Below are positions 3,561-12,469 of a stretch of DNA of 64,000 nucleotides, piece by piece. Under the pieces are notes generated by a model, which saw nothing but the letters and a program-made list of their open reading frames with translations, had not been told where the DNA came from and did no database searches. Made by a program: the position numbers and the translations under genes. Each line of letters starts with the position of its first letter. Within the stretch, counting starts at the first letter, position 1. The DNA comes from Amycolatopsis sacchari (GTDB taxonomy: Bacteria; Actinomycetota; Actinomycetes; Mycobacteriales; Pseudonocardiaceae), in the NCBI RefSeq assembly GCF_900114035.1, contig NZ_FORP01000004.1:62001-126000 (forward strand), given 5' to 3'.

Positions 3561-4079
3561 TCAGTCCGGCGGCATGGGTGACAGCTGCCCGCCGAACACC
3601 GACAGGTCCTCGCGCAGGACGGTGTCGCCGATCCGCACCGGCAGCGCGTCCATCAGCACGAACAGGACCCGGACCGGCTCCTCGCCGCGCGGGACCCAGG
3701 AGTGCGAGGTGCCCCGCTGGACCAGCACGTCGCCGGCTTCGAGCCGTTCGACCACCTCACCGCTGTCGAGGACCATGTCGAGCTGCCCGGACAGCACCAC
3801 CGCGACGTCCTGCGTCTCGGTGCGGTGCATGTTCGGCCGCTGCGGTTCCCCCGGCGCGAACTCCGCCATCCGGAACAGCACCCGGGAGCCCTTCGGGCCG
3901 GGGGCACCGTCGTCGAAGCCCTCTTCGTCGTTGCTCGCGGGGAACCGGCCCGTGCACCAGAACACCCGTGCCTCGTAGCCGGGCAGACGCGGCTCCGAGG
4001 TGACCACCTCGTCCGAACGGAGCACGGCCTTCCCGTCGGCGGAGTGGCCGGTCACGACCCGGCGGAAGCGGAACGTCAT
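3561..4079 (-). CDS. Cupin-domain protein
   Basis: A single-domain cupin of 172 residues. The double-stranded beta-helix core holds the likely metal site (NMHRTETQDVAVVLSGQ and GTSHSWVPRG), as in small dioxygenases, isomerases and sensor cupins. ATG 4079 overlaps the stop of the upstream gene in an ATGA, so translation is coupled. It is the last gene of a four-gene minus-strand operon (amidohydrolase, transporter, FAH-type hydrolase, cupin). The context suggests a role in breaking down one organic compound. The reaction is unknown. Confidence 0.82.
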   Translation of the reverse strand: MTFRFRRVVTGHSADGKAVLRSDEVVTSEPRLPGYEARVFWCTGRFPASNDEEGFDDGAPGPKGSRVLFRMAEFAPGEPQRPNMHRTETQDVAVVLSGQLDMVLDSGEVVERLEAGDVLVQRGTSHSWVPRGEEPVRVLFVLMDALPVRIGDTVLREDLSVFGGQLSPMPPD

Positions 4080-5023
4080 CGGACCACCCCGGCCGGGCGC
4101 AGCGGGAGGACACCCGTCCCCTCCGTCACGGTCTGCCGGGTCTCCCCCAGCCCCTCGCCACACAGGCTCACCACGTCACCCGGCCGCAGCCAGCCGGTGA
4201 AGTCCGCCAGTGCCGGGGTGTCGACGTGTTCGAGCAGGCAGCCGCGTGGCACGGTGCCGGACCCGATCACCGCACCGGGCAGGAGATCGGTCCCGCGTGA
4301 CGCGTACGCGAGGAGCTCACCAAAGGTCCAGTCCATTTGGTCGAGGCTGCCGCGGGTCAGCTCCTCGCCGTTGACGGTCGCCGACAGCGTGATGGCGAGC
4401 CTCCCGTCCCGGCGGTACGGCTCCAGTTCGTCGACCGTGACCAGTGCGGGCCCGAGCGTGATCGCGCAGTCCTTCCCCTTCGCCTGGCCGATGCCCTGCG
4501 CCAGGTCCACGAGCTGGTGGTCCCTGGCGGTCCAGTCGTTGAAGAGCGTGTAGCCGGCGATGTGCTCCTCCGCCCGGTCCGGGTGCAGGTCCCGGCCACC
4601 GCGGCCGAGCACCGCCCCGACCTCCAGCTCCAGGTCGAACATCGCCGATCCCGGAGCGACCGGGACGTCCTCGTACGGGCCGACGATCGCGTCCCGGTTG
4701 GCGAAGTAGAACGCCGGGCTGTGCGACCACGCCGGGTCCAGCGCGCCGTCCCTGCCGAGCACGCGGTAGCAGTTGCGGAGGTGCTCGAGGAAGCCCACGC
4801 CGTCCCGCACCGACTGCGGGCGGCGCAACGGGGCGAGCAGGGTGACCTCCGCCAGGCCGCGGACCTCCGCGGGCGCGCGGCGGGCGTCTTCCCCGGCTTC
4901 GGCGAGGTTCCCGCTTTCCAGCAGCGCCTCCAGGGTGGTCCCGGCCGCGAGCCCGCGCACGGACTCCCCGTCGATCACCCCTGTACGGACCCCGTCGCCG
5001 GCGTCATAGCTGACCCATTTCAA
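4076..5023 (-). CDS. Fumarylacetoacetate hydrolase-family protein
   Basis: A FAH-fold enzyme of 315 residues. Members hydrolyse C-C bonds, decarboxylate or hydrate ring-cleavage products (acylpyruvases, 2-keto-4-pentenoate hydratases). The divalent-metal ligands are recognisable in FDLELEVGAVLG and the downstream TLFNDWTARD. The start is taken as TTG 5023, because GGAGGAGG lies six bases upstream at 5030-5037 and the protein then begins MKWVSYDAGDG, typical of the family. Its first codons overlap the transporter 3' end by 20 nt, and its stop overlaps the cupin start. It probably acts late in the catabolic route encoded by the operon. Confidence 0.88.
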   Translation of the reverse strand: MKWVSYDAGDGVRTGVIDGESVRGLAAGTTLEALLESGNLAEAGEDARRAPAEVRGLAEVTLLAPLRRPQSVRDGVGFLEHLRNCYRVLGRDGALDPAWSHSPAFYFANRDAIVGPYEDVPVAPGSAMFDLELEVGAVLGRGGRDLHPDRAEEHIAGYTLFNDWTARDHQLVDLAQGIGQAKGKDCAITLGPALVTVDELEPYRRDGRLAITLSATVNGEELTRGSLDQMDWTFGELLAYASRGTDLLPGAVIGSGTVPRGCLLEHVDTPALADFTGWLRPGDVVSLCGEGLGETRQTVTEGTGVLPLRPAGVVR

Positions 5024-6362
5024 GGTTGTCCTCCTCCAGTTTCCGTTCGGGCCGGGCACCCCGGCCGAGGTAGGTGCGGAGCCCTCCGACGACGAGGGCG
5101 GCGGCGACGGTCAGCGCGCACGCGGCGAGCACGACGTACATCGGGGCGCCGGTGCCGACGGTCGCCACCAGCCACACCAGGATCAGGTTCAGGAAGCCGC
5201 CGAGGAGCGCGATGACGATGTTGTAGGGCACCGAGTAGCCCGTCTGCCGCACCTCGGTCGGGAAGATCGCCGAGACGAGGCTCGGCACGGCGGCCGGCAG
5301 CCCGGCCGCCGTCATCGCCGCGGGCAGCTGGAGCCACACCGCCAGTGCGGATCCGGCCGGCAGCCCGGGCAGGACGACCAGCAGCACCGCGGTGGTCGCC
5401 GCGGCCGACAGGCCGGCCCACAGCAGCATCCGGCGCCACCCGTACCGGTCCGCGAAGCGGCCCCACAGCGGCATCGCCGCCATCGCGCCCGCGATCGTCA
5501 GCAGGCTGGCCGCCAGCGCCGCCGTCGCTGAGTAGCCGAGTGCGCTCTGCAGGTAGGTCGGCCAGTAGTTGAAGTACGTGACGTTCACCAGCGTCAGCGC
5601 GATCGCGACGAGGACGGCGAACAACACGGCCGGGCGGTGGTTCCGGAGCACCGCCCGGATCGGCGCCGCCGGGCGTGGCGTGCCCTGCGCTCGCTCGCGG
5701 ACGAACTCGGGCGTCTCGTCGAGCCGGCGGCGCAGGTAGAGCGACACGAACCCGAGGAGACCGCCGAGGAGGAAGGGGAGGCGCCAGCCGAGCGACGGGG
5801 TGCCCGGGGCCAGGTGCGTCACCACCAGCCCGGAGAGGAACCCGGCCCCCGCGCCGAGCAGGAAACCGCTGTACGCCGTCATCTGCTGGAACGCGCCCGC
5901 CCGCGCCACTCCCCCTGGCGGGGCGTGTTCGCTGACGAAGACCGCGGCGGCCGGGACCTCGCCGCCGACCGCACAGCCCTGGGCGAGCCTCAGCAGCAGG
6001 AGCAGCACCGGGGCAGGCCAGCCCACCTGGTCGTACGTGGGCAGGACGCCGATCAGCAGGGTGGACACCGACATCACCGCGACGGTGAAGATGAACAGCC
6101 GTTTCCGGCCCACCCGGTCGGCCACCCGCGCGATGAGGATGCCGGCCACCGGCCGGACCAGCAGCCCGGTCGAGTAGATGGCGAGGGTCTGGACGAGCCT
6201 CATCGTCGGCGACAGGTCCGCCGGGAAGAACGCCCGGCCGATCAGGGTGGCGACGTAGAGGTAGGCGACGAAGTCGTAGTACTCGAGTGCCGCGCCCAGC
6301 GAGCCGAGGCGGACGTTCCGCCTGGCCCGCCGGACCGCTTCGGGCGAAGGTGCCTGCGTCAT
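5004..6362 (-). CDS. MFS transporter, metabolite:H+ symporter (MHS) type
   Basis: A 452-residue major-facilitator protein with about 12 hydrophobic segments. The first TM region (SLGAALEYYDFVAYLYVATL) and the loop RVADRVGRKRLF are typical of the metabolite:H+ symporter group, which takes up organic and aromatic acids, betaines and similar solutes. ATG 6362 has AAGGA-like pairing upstream. The gene starts 13 nt after the amidohydrolase stop and overlaps the FAH-type gene, so it belongs to the same operon and probably imports the operon's substrate. Substrate identity is unknown. Confidence 0.9.
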   Translation of the reverse strand: MTQAPSPEAVRRARRNVRLGSLGAALEYYDFVAYLYVATLIGRAFFPADLSPTMRLVQTLAIYSTGLLVRPVAGILIARVADRVGRKRLFIFTVAVMSVSTLLIGVLPTYDQVGWPAPVLLLLLRLAQGCAVGGEVPAAAVFVSEHAPPGGVARAGAFQQMTAYSGFLLGAGAGFLSGLVVTHLAPGTPSLGWRLPFLLGGLLGFVSLYLRRRLDETPEFVRERAQGTPRPAAPIRAVLRNHRPAVLFAVLVAIALTLVNVTYFNYWPTYLQSALGYSATAALAASLLTIAGAMAAMPLWGRFADRYGWRRMLLWAGLSAAATTAVLLVVLPGLPAGSALAVWLQLPAAMTAAGLPAAVPSLVSAIFPTEVRQTGYSVPYNIVIALLGGFLNLILVWLVATVGTGAPMYVVLAACALTVAAALVVGGLRTYLGRGARPERKLEEDNLEMGQL

Positions 6363-6375
6363 GGCAAGACCATCC

Positions 6376-7806
6376 TTAGTCCTCGAAATCGATGGAGGCG
6401 TAGGGCCAGCCGACGGCGGCGGTCAGGTGGTCGTGTGACTCCTGTATGCGGCGCAGGGCCCGCTCCAGGTCGACGCCGAGCAGCCGCCCCTCCCACTTCA
6501 CGAAGCGGCCGTCGACCAGGACGGCGTCCACGGAGTCCACCCCGGCGCCCTGGACCACCGAGGCGAGGACGTTGTTCCGGGGGAACAGGTGGGGCCGGAC
6601 GGTGTCGATCAGGATGATGTCGGCCTTCTTGCCCGGCGTCAGCGAGCCGGCCAGGTCGCCGACACCGCAGTTGTTCGCGCCCTGCTGCGTCGCGGAGAGC
6701 AGGATCTCCCGCAGCGACGCCGCCGGTGTTCCGGAGCGGTGCTGGTCGACCCGCTGCAGCTGGTGGAGCGCCCGCATCTCGGCGAACATGTCGATCGCGT
6801 AGGTCATCGGGTTGTCGTTGCTCAGGCCGGGCCGCAGCCCCTGCTCGACCCACTCGCGGTAGGGGATCCGGCCGTAGCGGAACTGCGATTCGATCCGGGG
6901 GCAGACGTTGACGTGGGCGCCGTGGTCCACGACGATCCGCCGTTGTTCCGGCGACAGGAAGTTGCCGTGGTTGATCGCTTCCCGCCCGTCGAACGACCCG
7001 TTTCCGTACAGCGCGGCGAGGTCCTGCTTTTCGATTCCGCTGTCGAAGGAAAACCACAAATCGAGCTCCTCGCGAACGGGGAGGAGTTCGGTGAGGTCGT
7101 CGAATCCCGGCGCGTACAGACGCATCGTGCACAACTGGTCGTCGCCGGGAAAATACTTGTCCCGCAGGCGCCGGGCGTCCGCCGGGAAGGTCCCCGCCCA
7201 GTCTCCGGCGCGCGGGCGGCCCATCGCGTGCACACCCCGCACCCCCGACTCGAACAGCGCCTCGACCGCCGCGTCCGAGTGCTCGGGCGAGCGGGCGTTG
7301 TGCATGTTGTCCACGACGGTGGTGATGCCGCCGTTGAGCGCGGCCAGCAGGCTGCTCAGGGTGCCCGCGTGGACGTCCTCCGGCCGGAAGGCGGGCGCGA
7401 ACAGGCGATGGGCCGCGTACATGTAGCTGCGGCCGGATTCGGGTGCCCCGCCAATGGCGTCCTCAGTGGACTGCGGGATGTTCTCCGGGATGATCCGGCC
7501 GAGCGCCCCTTCCCAGCAGTGGATGTGCGGATCGCAGAAGCCCGGCAGGACGATGTGGCCGCTCGCGTCGACGACCACGGCGTCCGGCGCGGAGATCGAG
7601 GCGCCGACCTCCGCGATCCGGTCACCGGCGATCAGGACGTCACCCGTGGCGAAGTCGCCCACCGCGCTGTCCATCGACAACACGGATCCCCCGCGGAGGA
7701 GGATCCGCTGGGAACGGTCCGGGCGGTTTCGGGCGTGTTCATCGAGAAGTGCGTGGAAACGGCCGCGCGCAGCGAAATCGGACGCGGTATTCGCGTCAGT
7801 GCTCAT
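6376..7806 (-). CDS. Amidohydrolase (AtzA/TrzN/SsnA-like deaminase or hydrolase)
   Basis: A metal-dependent amidohydrolase of the cytosine-deaminase/atrazine-chlorohydrolase group, 476 residues. It has the N-terminal beta-sandwich (RILLRGGSVLSMDS), the metal motif DPHIHCWEG, a conserved NHGNFLSPEQ region and the C-terminal NDNPMTYAIDMFAEMR stretch. I chose ATG 7806 with GAGG upstream; the frame runs on to 7977 without family resemblance. It is the first gene of the operon and faces the ABC-transporter operon across a 315-bp control region. Expected chemistry is hydrolytic deamination or dechlorination of an N-heterocycle or related amine. The exact substrate is open. Confidence 0.87.
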   Translation of the reverse strand: MSTDANTASDFAARGRFHALLDEHARNRPDRSQRILLRGGSVLSMDSAVGDFATGDVLIAGDRIAEVGASISAPDAVVVDASGHIVLPGFCDPHIHCWEGALGRIIPENIPQSTEDAIGGAPESGRSYMYAAHRLFAPAFRPEDVHAGTLSSLLAALNGGITTVVDNMHNARSPEHSDAAVEALFESGVRGVHAMGRPRAGDWAGTFPADARRLRDKYFPGDDQLCTMRLYAPGFDDLTELLPVREELDLWFSFDSGIEKQDLAALYGNGSFDGREAINHGNFLSPEQRRIVVDHGAHVNVCPRIESQFRYGRIPYREWVEQGLRPGLSNDNPMTYAIDMFAEMRALHQLQRVDQHRSGTPAASLREILLSATQQGANNCGVGDLAGSLTPGKKADIILIDTVRPHLFPRNNVLASVVQGAGVDSVDAVLVDGRFVKWEGRLLGVDLERALRRIQESHDHLTAAVGWPYASIDFED

Positions 7807-8020
7807 GGAACCTCGATTCGGCAGATCCGGGCTCCGGTGCCCGGTTACCGCCCACCGGGGCGGCGATCTCAGGTTAACAGCCGGAATGCGGACGATCCCA
7901 ATGCCGTTTCGGAAATACCGCAATTCCTCACAGGAATACCGTGCGGGAATTCGAGCGTTTTCGGACCCCGTGGCCACCGGGGTGGAGGCACCCCTGGGGC
8001 GCGGCAGCCGGGCAGCGAAA

Positions 8021-8060
8021 CTTCAACTCCTCGTTGACCTCTTCAACAGCGCGTTGTAAC
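8021..8060 (+). promoter_or_regulatory. Twin CAAC-N5-GTTG operators, 20-bp period
   Basis: Two copies of CTTCAACnnCnCGTTG lie head to tail with exactly 20 bp between them (dyads at 8024-8036 and 8044-8056). The phasing is two helical turns, so two dimers would sit on the same DNA face. The dyads overlap the -35 box, spacer and start of the -10 box of the promoter at 8034-8062, which suits a repressor. The obvious candidate ligand is the HTH protein encoded at the end of the same operon (10748-12469). Confidence 0.65.
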
Positions 8061-8062
8061 GT
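8034..8062 (+). promoter_or_regulatory. Vegetative-type promoter of the ABC transporter operon
   Basis: TTGACC at 8034-8039 and TAACGT at 8057-8062 are separated by 17 bp, matching the actinobacterial housekeeping pattern TTGAC-N17-TAnnnT. A transcript would begin near 8069 and reach AGGAG at 8111-8115 and ATG 8122. The -35 box is the second half of the first CAAC-N5-GTTG dyad, so binding there would block polymerase. Confidence 0.65.
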
Positions 8063-8121: not shown

Positions 8122-9075
8122 ATGTCGGCCAGGTCTCGTCTCGTGCGCTGGGGCGCACTCATCGCCGGTTGCCTGCTGACCACGGCCGCCTGCGGCGGTG
8201 GTCCCGACGGCGCCGGCGGCGGCAGCACGGACAGCGGCACCTCCAGCGGGGTCCCGGACACCGCCGCGATCGTCCAGTCGGTCACCAAGGACGCCCAGCT
8301 CGCGGCGGCCCTCCCGCCGCAGCTCACGCAGGCGGGCTCGCTCAACGTCGGGTCCAACCTGCAGTCCGCGCCGAACAACTTCTACGCCTCCGACGGCAAG
8401 ACGCCGGTCGGCTTCGAGGTGGACATCGCCAAGGCCATCGCCGCCAAGCTGGGCCTGACCGTGCACTACAGCGACATGCCGTTCGGCTCGCTGATCACCA
8501 GCCTCGCCTCCGGCCGCCTCGACCTGACGATGGCCGGGATGAACGACACCAAGGCCCGCGAGCAGCAGATCGACTTCGTCGACTACTTCACCTCCGGCAT
8601 CACGATCATGGTGCGCAAGGGCAACCCGGACGGCATCACCGGCGCGGACTCGCTGTGCGGCAAGACGGTGGCCGTCGTGCAGGGCACCAGCCACCAGACC
8701 TTCGCCGCCGAGCAGAGCACGAAGTGCACGCAGGCGGGCAAGCCGGCGGTGACGGTGACGGCCACCGACAGCGACTCGCAGAACCAGAATCAGCTGCGCA
8801 CCGGCCGCGTCAACGCGATCCTCAACGACCTGCCCACCGCCGCCTACGTCTCGAAGAACGCGGGCAACGGCCAGTTCTTCGAGGTCGTCCCCGGTGAGCC
8901 GATCAACGGCGGCCCCTACGGCATCGGCGTCAACAAGAACAACCCGCAGCTGCGCGACGCCGTCGCGAACGCCCTGACCGCGCTGCTCCAGGACGGCACG
9001 TACACGAAGATCCTCGACGCCTGGGGCATCAAGCAGGGCGCGCTGACGAAGGTGACGGTCAATGCCGGCAGCTGA
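8122..9075 (+). CDS. Amino-acid ABC transporter substrate-binding lipoprotein
   Basis: An extracytoplasmic solute-binding protein of family 3 (polar amino acids, opines), 317 residues. It has a lipoprotein signal with lipobox LLTTAAC, so the mature protein starts at the Cys and is anchored outside the membrane. The family signature is visible in GFEVDIAKAIAAKLG, the FGSLITSLASGRLDL region and VVQGTSHQTFA. ATG 8122 follows AGGAG by six bases. It is first in a four-gene plus-strand operon (binding protein, permease, ATPase, aminotransferase-regulator). Its 3' end overlaps the permease start by 14 nt. The ligand is probably an amino acid that the fused aminotransferase handles. Confidence 0.92.
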   Translation: MSARSRLVRWGALIAGCLLTTAACGGGPDGAGGGSTDSGTSSGVPDTAAIVQSVTKDAQLAAALPPQLTQAGSLNVGSNLQSAPNNFYASDGKTPVGFEVDIAKAIAAKLGLTVHYSDMPFGSLITSLASGRLDLTMAGMNDTKAREQQIDFVDYFTSGITIMVRKGNPDGITGADSLCGKTVAVVQGTSHQTFAAEQSTKCTQAGKPAVTVTATDSDSQNQNQLRTGRVNAILNDLPTAAYVSKNAGNGQFFEVVPGEPINGGPYGIGVNKNNPQLRDAVANALTALLQDGTYTKILDAWGIKQGALTKVTVNAGS

Positions 9076-9982
9076 CGTCCAGTCCCCGCCCAAGGCCGAG
9101 CTGCCGATCGTCCGGCTGCGGCACTGGGGCCGCTGGGTCAGCGCCGTGGTCATCCTGGCGCTGCTGGCCGGCCTCGGCGTCCTGCTGGCGCAGGCGAAGA
9201 TCCAGTACGACACCGTCCCGGACTTCCTGTGGTACCGCGTGATGGCGGTCGGCCTGCTCAACACCGTGCTGCTCGCGGTGATCTCGCAGGCCGTCGCGAT
9301 CGTCATCGGCATCGTGGTCGCGCTGATGCGCCGCTCGGCCAACCCGGTCGCGCGCGTCGTCGCCGCCGTCTACGTGTGGCTGTTCCGCGGGCTGCCGGTG
9401 CTGCTGCAGATCCTGCTGTGGTTCAACCTGGCGCTGGTGTTCGAGTTCATCTCGATCCCGCTGCCCTTCGGCGGCTACCTCGTGCACGAGCCGACCAACG
9501 TCGTGATCAGCGCGTTCGTCGCCGCCCTGCTCGGCCTGGCGCTCAACGAAAGCGCTTACATGGCCGAGATCGTGCGGGCCGGGCTGAACAGCGTCGACAA
9601 AGGACAGACGGAGGCAGCGAAGTCGATCGGCATGTCGCCCGCGATGACGCTGCGCCGCGTGGTGCTGCCGCAGGCGATGCGCGTGATCATCCCGCCCACC
9701 GGCAACGACTTCATCAACATGCTCAAGGGCACGTCGATGGCGTCGGTGATCGGCGTGACGGAACTGATCCACGCGGCCAACAACATCTCCTCGAACAACC
9801 TGCTCGTGATGGAGACGCTGCTGGCCGCGGCGATCTGGTACATGGTCGTCGTCACCGTGGCGAGCATCGGTCAGCACTACCTCGAACGCGCCTTCGGCGC
9901 CGCCGACCGGGCGGGTGCCGCGTCCGGGCCGTGGTCGCGCGTGGGCCGCGCGCTGCGGGCGATGCCGTTGCGGAGGGCCTGA
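9062..9982 (+). CDS. Amino-acid ABC transporter permease
   Basis: A 306-residue inner-membrane permease of the His/Glu/Gln/Arg/opine family. A single first TM segment (residues about 28-46) is followed by the permease domain. The EAA-type loop is readable around [23 protein letters not shown], which contacts the ATPase. ATG 9062 overlaps the binding-protein stop. The ATPase gene follows after one base. It presumably works with one ATPase dimer and itself as a homodimer, since no second permease gene is present. Confidence 0.92.
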
Positions 9983-9983
9983 C

Positions 9984-10748
9984 ATGAGCGAGCCACTGCT
10001 GCGCGCCGTGGGCGTGCGCAAGCACTTCGGCGGCACCGAGGTGCTCCGCGGCATCGACCTGTCCGTCCGCAAAGGACAGGTCGTGTGCCTGCTCGGCCCG
10101 TCCGGAGCGGGCAAGAGCACGTTCCTGCGCTGCATCAACCACCTGGAGACGATCGACGGCGGCCAGGTGTGGGTCGACGGCGAGCCCATCGGGTTCCGCC
10201 TGCACAAGGGGAAACTGCACGAGCTGCGGGAACGCGAGGTGGCCCGGCAGCGCCGGGACATCGGCATGGTGTTCCAGCGGTTCAACCTGTTCGCGCACCG
10301 CAGCGTGCTCGAAAACGTCATCGAGGGCCCGGTGCGGGTGCGGGGCGTGAGCCAGGCCGAGGCCAGGAAGACCGCGCTGGAGCTGCTGGACCGGGTCGGC
10401 CTCGCGCACCGCGCCGACGCCTACCCGGAGCAGTTGTCGGGTGGCCAGCAGCAGCGGGTGGCGATCGCGCGCTCGCTGGCGATGAAACCGAAGCTGATGC
10501 TGTTCGACGAGCCGACCTCGGCGCTGGACCCCGAGCTGGTCGGCGAGGTGCTGGAGGTGATGACCGCGCTGGCGGCGGAGGGGATGACAATGGTGGTCGT
10601 GACGCACGAGATGGGCTTCGCCCGCGAGGTGGCCGACGAGGTCGTGTTCATGGCCGACGGGGCCGTCGTGGAAACGGGGCCGCCCGGCGAGGTGCTGGTC
10701 GACCCGAAGCACGAGCGGACCCGCCAGTTCCTGGCGCGCATCCTCTGA
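9984..10748 (+). CDS. Amino-acid ABC transporter ATP-binding protein
   Basis: The nucleotide-binding subunit of a polar amino-acid importer, 254 residues. Walker A is GPSGAGKS, the signature [16 protein letters not shown], and Walker [15 protein letters not shown], followed by the switch histidine in [12 protein letters not shown] 9984 has GGAGG at 9972-9976. The upstream extension of the frame to 9915 overlaps the permease and is not homologous. The stop overlaps the start of the aminotransferase fusion gene by one base (TGATG), so all four genes are one unit. Confidence 0.95.
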
Positions 10749-12469
10749 TGGGCCGGATCTCACCGCGGTACCTGCTGCAGTTCGACGAGCCCGCCGGCTA
10801 CCTGGACTTCGCCCGGTTCGGCCCGCCGTCGCACGCCGTGCTGGACACCACCGCCCGCCTGACCGAACAGGCCGCGAAGGCCGGTCCGTCCACTGTGGAC
10901 GAGCTGATGCGCCAGGAGGTGCGCGCGAAGGCCGCCGTGGCGCGGTTGTGCGGCACCGACACCGACCACGTCGTGCTCGTGCCCAACACCAGCCAGGGCC
11001 TGTTCCAGGCGGCGTTCGCCGCGTCCGGCGAGGTGCTGGTGTCGGCGGCGGAGTTCCCCGCCAACACCTACCCGTGGGTGCGGGCCGAGCAGGCCGGACG
11101 CCTGCGCGTGCGGCGGATGACGCCGCCGGACAGCTACGTCACGCCGGACGCGGTCGCCGCCGAGCTGACCGGCGAAACCACGCTCGTCTCCGTGAGCGCG
11201 GTGGACTTCCGCACGGGTTACCGCGCGGACCTGGCCGCGCTGCGCGAGGTGGTCGGCGACCGGCTGCTCGTCGTGGACGGCATCCAGGGCTTCGGCGTGA
11301 TCGACGCGCCGTGGGAGGCCGCCGACGTGCTCGTGGTGGGTGGCCAGAAGTGGCTGCGCGCGGGCTGGGGAACGGGGTTCGCCGTGTTGTCGGACCGCGC
11401 GCTCGACCGGCTCCAGCCGACGCTGTCCGGCTGGACGGGGGCGCACGACGCCGGGCTGTTCGACAACGAGGTGCACCCGCCCGCGGACACGGCGGCGAAC
11501 TGGTCGATCAGCAACCTGAGCCCGGTAACGTCGGGTGCCTTCGCGGCCGCGCTGGAACTGGTCGAGGAGACCGGGGTCGCGGCGATCGAAGGGCGGATCG
11601 CCGAGCGCGTCGGGGAACTGGAGGAGACGCTGCGGTCGCTGGGCGCGGACATCGTGTCCGCCACCGGCCGCCGGGCGGGGATCCTCGCGTTCGCCCTGCC
11701 GGAGCGGCCCGCCGAGCAGGTGGGCGCGGTGCTGGCGGCGGAGGGCATCGCGGCGACGGTCCGCGTCGAGCACGTCCGGTTGTCGCCGCACGCGTCGACC
11801 CCGCCCGCCGCGGCCGAACTGCTGCGCTCGGCGCTGGCGGGCCGGCCGCGGACGAGCACGACCGTCGCGGTGGAAACCACGGCGGAGGCGGAGTCGGTGC
11901 TGACCGCGCTGGTGCCCGCGGTGCCGGGGCTGGCGGCGATGCTGGGGCCGGGCAACGAGGTCGTGCTGCACGACCTGAGCAAGCTGCCGAACTCGATCGT
12001 CGCGGTGGCGGGCACGCTGACGGGCCGCACGCCGGGCGGTCCGATGACGGATCTGCTGCTGGGCCTGGTCCGCCGCGGCACGACGCAGGACCTGACCAAC
12101 TACGAGACGCACGGTCCCGACGGCAGGCCGATCCGGTCGTCGACGATCTTCCTGCGGGACGCGGAGGGCGTCGCGATCGGCTGCCTGTGCGTGAACAGCG
12201 AACTGCCCGCGACGGCCGCCGGGAGCACCACGCGGCAGGAGACGTTCCCGCCCGACGTGGACAGCCTGCAACGGTTCCTGGTGGACCGGGCGGTGGGCAG
12301 CACGGGCATCCCGGTGGAGCTGATGAAGAAGCGGCACAAGGCGGCGGTGGTCCGCGAACTCGACGAAGCCGGGTTCTTCCTGATCAAGGACGCGGTGGAC
12401 TTCCTCGCGGCCGAACTGAAGGTCACCCGCTACACGATCTACAACTACCTGAACGAAATCCGGGGGTGA
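10748..12469 (+). CDS. Class V aminotransferase fused to a YheO/DauR-like PAS-HTH regulator
   Basis: A 573-residue fusion. Residues 1 to about 375 are a class V (fold type I) PLP enzyme, with the Schiff-base lysine at Lys201 in VVGGQKWLRAGWGTG and the carboxylate-ring contact region VSAVDFRTGYRADLA. Residues about 386-500 match the YheO-type PAS domain (GNEVVLHDLSKLPNSIVAV and IRSSTIFLRDAEGVAIGCL). Residues about 505-573 match the HTH found in DauR and YheO (VVRELDEAGFFLIKDAVDF, ending TRYTIYNYLNEIRG). Such regulators are normally free-standing proteins of about 220-240 residues. Start ATG 10748 overlaps the ATPase stop. I infer an enzyme-regulator that senses or processes the imported amino acid and controls its own operon. 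Confidence 0.88.
   Translation: MGRISPRYLLQFDEPAGYLDFARFGPPSHAVLDTTARLTEQAAKAGPSTVDELMRQEVRAKAAVARLCGTDTDHVVLVPNTSQGLFQAAFAASGEVLVSAAEFPANTYPWVRAEQAGRLRVRRMTPPDSYVTPDAVAAELTGETTLVSVSAVDFRTGYRADLAALREVVGDRLLVVDGIQGFGVIDAPWEAADVLVVGGQKWLRAGWGTGFAVLSDRALDRLQPTLSGWTGAHDAGLFDNEVHPPADTAANWSISNLSPVTSGAFAAALELVEETGVAAIEGRIAERVGELEETLRSLGADIVSATGRRAGILAFALPERPAEQVGAVLAAEGIAATVRVEHVRLSPHASTPPAAAELLRSALAGRPRTSTTVAVETTAEAESVLTALVPAVPGLAAMLGPGNEVVLHDLSKLPNSIVAVAGTLTGRTPGGPMTDLLLGLVRRGTTQDLTNYETHGPDGRPIRSSTIFLRDAEGVAIGCLCVNSELPATAAGSTTRQETFPPDVDSLQRFLVDRAVGSTGIPVELMKKRHKAAVVRELDEAGFFLIKDAVDFLAAELKVTRYTIYNYLNEIRG

Follow-up and report, generated by a model that had tools for sequence, protein, structure and literature searches.

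An importer operon that ends in a fused enzyme-regulator gene

The window, a stretch of 64,000 nucleotides from Amycolatopsis sacchari, contains an operon on the forward strand that begins with three genes of an ABC importer: a substrate-binding protein (SBP) of the amino-acid-type SBP_bac_3 family (8122-9075, Pfam 1e-34), a permease (9062-9982, Pfam BPD_transp_1), and an ATPase (9984-10748, Pfam ABC_tran). The last gene of the operon (10748-12469), whose ATG overlaps the stop codon of the ATPase gene, translates into a single open frame of 573 codons and one stop. The importer is related to several amino-acid systems. Its SBP matches NCBIfam families of Lys/Arg/Orn, Gln, and cystine binders, all of them below cut-off; the best NCBIfam match of the permease is cystine permease PRK15100 (150.2 bits, cut-off 300), and those of the ATPase (EhuA, GlnQ, and TcyN) are also below their cut-offs. 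Matches in the PDB are likewise spread over several amino-acid binders, and naming the transported amino acid from these matches was rejected. A divergent cluster at 4076-7977 contains genes for an FAA hydrolase, an MFS carrier, and an amidohydrolase. The true start of the amidohydrolase is probably well within its open reading frame, as the best family match begins at residue 89, which would place the operator described below in a shared intergenic region.

The protein encoded by the last gene starts with a class V PLP domain of fold type I (residues 1-366, 10748-11845, forward strand as for all parts of the gene), where Pfam Aminotran_5 matches residues 51-336 with 83.1 bits against a cut-off of 21.5, and the codon of Lys201 is located at 11348-11350. 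A flexible linker (residues 367-378, 11846-11881) leads to a YheO-like PAS_6 domain (residues 379-487, 11882-12208, Pfam 6.2e-28; match to residues 385-486, 97.4 bits, cut-off 27). The C-terminal part is an HTH_22 DNA-binding domain (residues 504-573, 12257-12466, Pfam 4e-20; match to residues 511-569, 72 bits, cut-off 29.6) with the recognition helix TRYTIYNYLNE. An alignment of 54 sequences was the input for the AlphaFold model, whose mean pLDDT is 89.3 and whose pTM is 0.67. It contains an enzyme domain up to residue ~366 with pLDDT mostly above 90, a weak linker at residues 368-378 with pLDDT below 50, a PAS-like domain, another weak segment at residues 491-502, and a helical C-terminal domain; at this pTM, the relative placement of the domains is not trustworthy. 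The original prediction of a PLP enzyme with an intact Lys201 running into a YheO-type PAS domain and a DauR-type C-terminal HTH agrees with these matches, as both regulator domains are found beyond residue 380 and above their Pfam cut-offs.

Conservation and distribution of the fusion

Relatives were collected by a species scan with one genome per species, whose best 80 matches represent 77 distinct loci, and loci from the window genome and its relatives were added. In this set, both halves are in one frame at 84 of the 96 loci with a strong match to the enzyme. Some loci were fetched twice: the 84 fused loci represent 77 distinct sequences including that of the window, the 12 lone loci represent 10, and six pairs among the 83 aligned fused rows are identical sequences. 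The 77 distinct fused sequences rule out an artefact or a frameshift as the origin of the fusion and, together with the translation, confirm the uninterrupted 573-codon frame that had been proposed.

The enzyme, PAS, and HTH parts are conserved about equally among the fused rows, with a mean majority identity of 0.83, 0.85, and 0.87, respectively, and the first linker is not (0.40). None of the 12 linker positions (residues 367-378) is invariant among the fused rows; within the HTH, 10 of the 13 positions at residues 560-572 are invariant in all 83.

Genera among the best 80 matches of the species scan include Amycolatopsis, Pseudonocardia, Nocardia, Mycolicibacterium, Saccharothrix, Lentzea, Umezawaea, Kibdelosporangium, Actinosynnema, and Herbihabitans. 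Two loci may be mislabelled: L053, titled Rhodococcus rhodnii, resembles Kibdelosporangium by the enzyme tree, and L064, titled Nocardia sp. NRRL S-836, resembles Lentzea by its operator and start context only. In a sample of 259 genomes of the order, the fusion was found in 15, all from the family of the window, among the matches listed. In a sample of 396 genomes of the phylum, it was found only in the window's own genome among the matches listed, which were sorted by E-value. Enzyme and regulator as adjacent separate genes were found in neither sample among the matches listed.

The operon is conserved together with the fusion. Relatives of the SBP, permease, and ATPase precede the fusion on the same strand at 67 of the 68 fused loci from the best 80 matches of the species scan, where L060, with its ATPase in two pieces, is counted, and L068 has no importer. 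The fused gene had been described as the last gene of an amino-acid ABC importer operon, and this description holds for the same 67 loci. None of the nine lone-enzyme loci from these matches has an importer operon.

These data bear on whether the two halves of the protein are coupled. An ordinary enzyme and a YheO-type repressor may share one chain just for equal expression, with the PAS domain sensing the ligand and the enzyme simply carrying out its reaction. The flexible, unconserved linker is consistent with this explanation, as are the many genomes where the enzyme stands alone, the genomes where regulators of the PAS_6-HTH_22 family stand alone, and the nearest unfused regulators, which are encoded beside their PLP enzyme and not within it. 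However, wherever importer, enzyme, and regulator occur together among the best 80 matches, the latter two are fused (67 of 67 loci) and never split. We consider a fusion of this uncoupled kind possible but doubtful.

In-frame internal starts for the regulator half are found in 81 of the 83 fused rows, and only two of all 83 rows, those of the window and L068, have a Shine-Dalgarno-like 4-mer before the internal start. Translation of the regulator as a product of its own was therefore rejected as a conserved feature. In the window, a GTG at ~11897 (residue ~384) has a Shine-Dalgarno-like stretch on its 5′ side, and a short regulator-only product is thus possible in this strain.

The enzyme half is probably active

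Residues S82, D177, Q180, K201, R344, and H348 are invariant in the alignment of 83 fused and 12 lone rows. We take K201 to be the PLP lysine and D177 and Q180 to hold the PLP ring. These three residues, together with the Aminotran_5 match above cut-off, place the enzyme half in class V. Profile and fold searches lead to class V lyases and desulfurases, namely the T. onnurineus cysteine desulfurase, the C-DES cystine lyase (1elq, Foldseek rank 3, TM 0.84 over the target), SufS, and PvdN; the profile search also matches kynureninase and EgtE. The fold and the PLP site are common to all of these enzymes and the fusion, but identity is only 17-20% among the 50 Foldseek matches listed, the fusion has no catalytic cysteine, and the SufS histidines are replaced.

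Neither the window protein nor four lone relatives reach any NCBIfam cut-off. A SufS-type desulfurase was rejected: the score is 51.2 bits against a cut-off of 475.1, F103-P104 occupy the positions of the two SufS histidines, and the enzyme half has a single cysteine, at residue 68. SufS-type enzymes have a catalytic Cys loop and a PLP-stacking His. EgtE was also rejected, as TIGR04343 gives no match to the window protein at E up to 0.01; on two distant lone relatives this model scores 53.8 and 36.9 bits against a cut-off of 400. We also tried to name the enzyme through the neighbours of lone loci and abandoned this approach. Apart from a broken regulator remnant in L074, which came to light in a separate inspection of that locus, none of the nine lone loci has a relative of the window's importer or regulator; gene lists were read for six of the nine. 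Ten further lone loci have no common pathway among their neighbours. Three of these ten (L128, L130, and L133) have ATPase-like genes nearby, and no gene there was called as an SBP relative. Four lone enzymes (L129, L131, L132, and L133) lie directly behind an undecaprenyl diphosphate synthase-like gene, as read by eye, which is a conserved neighbourhood.

An enzyme tree of 57 rows, built by a quick method with three lone rows as the outgroup, places the lone enzymes of other actinobacterial families outside a group that includes every fused row. On this tree, seven changes of the fused label are required, at least six of them forced by well-supported branches, with L154 counted as lone. Our reading is that one fusion was probably followed by about six losses of the regulator, with several forks open. 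The active site is kept in the sampled losses, and therefore the enzyme half probably does useful chemistry alone. Branches are longer in lone enzymes (for example, 0.28 for L071, compared with 0.095 for the window), and the constraint on them may have changed.

The original prediction allowed the PLP domain either to sense or to convert the amino acid. Since close relatives stand alone with the same active site, the enzyme half is likelier an active enzyme than a bare sensor, which refines that proposal. A MocR-like pure sensor, which has lost catalysis and senses the amino acid through PLP, would fit the layout known from MocR regulators such as EnuR (available part of PMC8739950) and would fit L154, which retained the enzyme and HTH parts and lost the PAS domain. 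The retained PLP and carboxylate residues, and the many genomes in which the domain stands alone, argue against it, and we consider it unlikely.

A conserved, predicted tandem operator precedes the importer

Upstream of the SBP gene, two palindromic sites are located on the forward strand: site 1, TTCAAC-N5-GTTGA, at 8022-8037, and site 2, TTCAAC-N5-GTTGTA, at 8042-8058, 20 bp from site 1 measured from start to start. They form the tandem pattern TTCAAC-N5-GTTGA-N4-TTCAAC-N5-GTTGTA (8022-8058), which coincides with the DNA at 8021-8060 originally proposed as the target of the regulator. The pattern occurs once in the window's genome, even with three mismatches allowed. All 68 rows examined (67 loci and the window) have an operator before the importer, and 61 of them match the full pattern with at most three mismatches. 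Five rows titled Mycolicibacterium or Mycobacterium (L043-L046 and L048) have a spacing of 22 bp with 0 or 1 mismatch, and in L063 and L064 the operator, with one mismatch, is located just before the ATG that precedes the SBP match. As controls, none of 1360 base shuffles matched with fewer than 8 mismatches, and none of 68 reversed sequences with fewer than 9.

A possible promoter on the same strand was read by eye (8034-8062; TTGACC at 8034-8039, 17 bp, and TAACGT at 8057-8062). Its hexamers are weak, and a promoter consensus scan reported none at its threshold. Both operator sites overlap this candidate, with site 2 in the space between its -35 and -10 elements. This overlap makes repression with release by a ligand the simplest model. 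Alternatively, the regulator half may activate the operon: site 1 extends upstream of the proposed -35, a position that activators also use, and the promoter itself is uncertain. The position of site 2, however, favours steric repression, and we consider an activator quite improbable.

The operator follows the regulator through losses and in unfused relatives

Among 150 genomes of the family, 49 have a match to the fusion protein at E 1e-40. The full fusion is present in 33 of these, and in the other 16 the match covers the enzyme without a full regulator. The operator, with at most two mismatches, is present in 35 of the 150: all 33 genomes with the full fusion and 2 of the 117 others. A control pattern has no match across the 150 genomes. 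The SBP, at an identity of at least 62%, is present in 34 of the 150, namely the 33 full-fusion genomes and G024. The latter genome (locus L157) has kept the importer genes at 72-81% identity. Of the fusion, only a short start-like remnant could be recognised by eye, and there is no operator even with six mismatches allowed. This loss argues against the operator belonging to a different regulator of the importer, and so do the occurrences of the operator before fusion-type genes without an importer and before the dehydratase-regulator operons described below. We consider such a regulator highly improbable.

In the two other genomes with the operator, it lies directly before the enzyme gene, with no importer relative nearby. 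In G544 (L153), the regulator is gone. In G541 (L154, 6584-8251), a frame of 555 residues encodes the enzyme joined through a low-complexity linker to an HTH_22 region (65% identity), with no PAS match in the protein. The operator also lies directly before an enzyme-type gene, without an importer, in L068 and L074. In L074, stops and a deletion disrupt the regulator part, the enzyme still has an intact frame, and short ends of the importer genes seem to be retained. The persistence of operator and enzyme without the regulator in L153, and with a broken one in L074, runs counter to the mechanism proposed below, and these cases may represent decay.

L154 bears on where the ligand is sensed. The enzyme half itself may be the sensor, so that PLP chemistry at Lys201 alters DNA binding by the HTH and catalysis resets the switch; if this is true, L154, with the PAS domain missing and the operator kept, would sense through the enzyme alone. 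We hold this only as a tentative possibility.

In a regulator tree of 29 rows, with a midpoint root for drawing only, all 15 fused regulators cluster together (98/96) and are joined (96/94) by four unfused regulators (L163 and L169-L171), which come from a single genus in a different family of the order. We read these four as the sister of the fused group. Their identity to the window's regulator is 47-49%, all four have the recognition helix SRYTIYNYLN, and each lies directly behind a threonine-dehydratase-like PLP gene, whose best NCBIfam match in L163 is threonine ammonia-lyase (244.8 bits, cut-off 496). The tandem operator is located directly before the dehydratase gene in all four; it differs from the pattern by 3 or 4 mismatches, and its sites are 20 or 21 bp apart. 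In contrast, a further ten lone regulator loci, whose helices are of other kinds (for example, ISRASAYNYL), have no tandem operator in the same search over 11-14 kb. These results indicate that the operator goes with this branch of regulators rather than with either the importer or the class V enzyme. The four genomes belong to one genus and are therefore not four independent cases. With the C-terminal half tied to the operator both by natural losses and by unfused relatives, autoregulation through DNA binding is well supported by sequence.

A proposed mechanism

We propose that the fusion is a bifunctional, self-regulating enzyme-repressor of an amino-acid importer, built in the reverse order of MocR/GabR regulators and of independent origin, and we put the probability of this reading at roughly two in three. 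The PAS_6-HTH_22 half very probably binds the predicted operator, the two TTCAAC-N5-GTTGW palindromes before the SBP-permease-ATPase-fusion operon, and the fusion would thereby repress both the importer and its own gene, as the overlap with the promoter read by eye suggests. From its conserved residues, the N-terminal half is expected to hold PLP on Lys201 and to be catalytic, processing the imported amino acid or a derivative. When the amino acid enters the cell, a ligand would bind, most simply in the PAS pocket, and the operator would be released; the enzyme half would then drain the inducer and reset the switch. The fusion would fix the ratio of enzyme to switch and may couple the two directly. 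As for the reaction, we guess that a beta-substituted alanine undergoes beta-elimination; cystine, an S-substituted cysteine, serine, and 3-hydroxyaspartate are examples of such substrates. A beta-substituted substrate is suggested by the cystine permease match, which is far below cut-off, together with the dehydratases of the unfused operons, which by name act on beta-hydroxy amino acids.

Comparison with known systems

MocR regulators combine an N-terminal GntR-type wHTH with a C-terminal class I aminotransferase-like domain, according to the available part of PMC5320631. Like the MocR/GabR proteins (GabR, PdxR, TauR, and EnuR), the fusion carries a PLP fold type I domain and an HTH in one chain. 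It differs in having an N-terminal class V domain, a PAS_6 domain, and a C-terminal HTH_22, and in an enzyme half that is probably active. No GntR and no class I match was found in the fusion by Pfam at E up to 0.01. We regard the fusion as an independent, reversed counterpart of MocR, and the Pfam domains uphold the original prediction of a mirror design that differs in aminotransferase class and HTH family and has its domains in reversed order. It represents a separate event in which a PLP enzyme fold became joined to a DNA-binding domain, and unlike MocR regulators it has probably kept catalysis. In the available part of PMC8739950, two operators predicted for the MocR repressor EnuR overlap the promoter of an operon for ectoine import and catabolism. 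The operator-over-promoter layout that we propose for the fusion, with repression of an importer operon, is thus used elsewhere.

The C-terminal half matches both Pfam models of the YheO/DauR/DguR proteins (PAS_6-HTH_22). DauR and DguR have roles in D-amino-acid use. The lone YheO-type relatives found in this analysis have no enzyme domain, whereas the fusion has 366 residues in front, and most of these relatives have a longer connection between PAS and HTH than the fusion. No PDB match of the regulator half alone had an E-value below 0.79. Stand-alone PAS_6-HTH proteins are known, for example, from Campylobacter, and are also mentioned elsewhere (available parts of PMC4519771 and PMC10717218, respectively). 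We found no description of a fusion of a class V PLP domain with PAS_6-HTH_22 in the open literature, which was the scope of the search, subscription papers lying outside it.

A predicted operator is now available for one branch of the YheO/DauR family. Nature also provides controls: a lone enzyme, a lone regulator, one fusion without PAS, one importer without the regulator, and operons in which the same operator precedes unfused genes. With these controls, and with catalysis probably kept, the question of how an enzyme turns into a transcription switch is directly testable.

The dehydratase operons of L163 and L169-L171 are alike in having a PLP enzyme, a closely related regulator, and the tandem operator. 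They differ in that the genes are separate, the PLP enzyme belongs to another family, and no importer is seen between operator and regulator. A PLP enzyme beside a YheO-type regulator may be a general theme. Among class-level relatives, lone YheO-type regulator genes in L137, L138, L166, and L167 adjoin dehydratase-like PLP genes, and the one that was scanned, in L166, scores 448.6 bits for threo-3-hydroxy-L-aspartate ammonia-lyase against a cut-off of 452.
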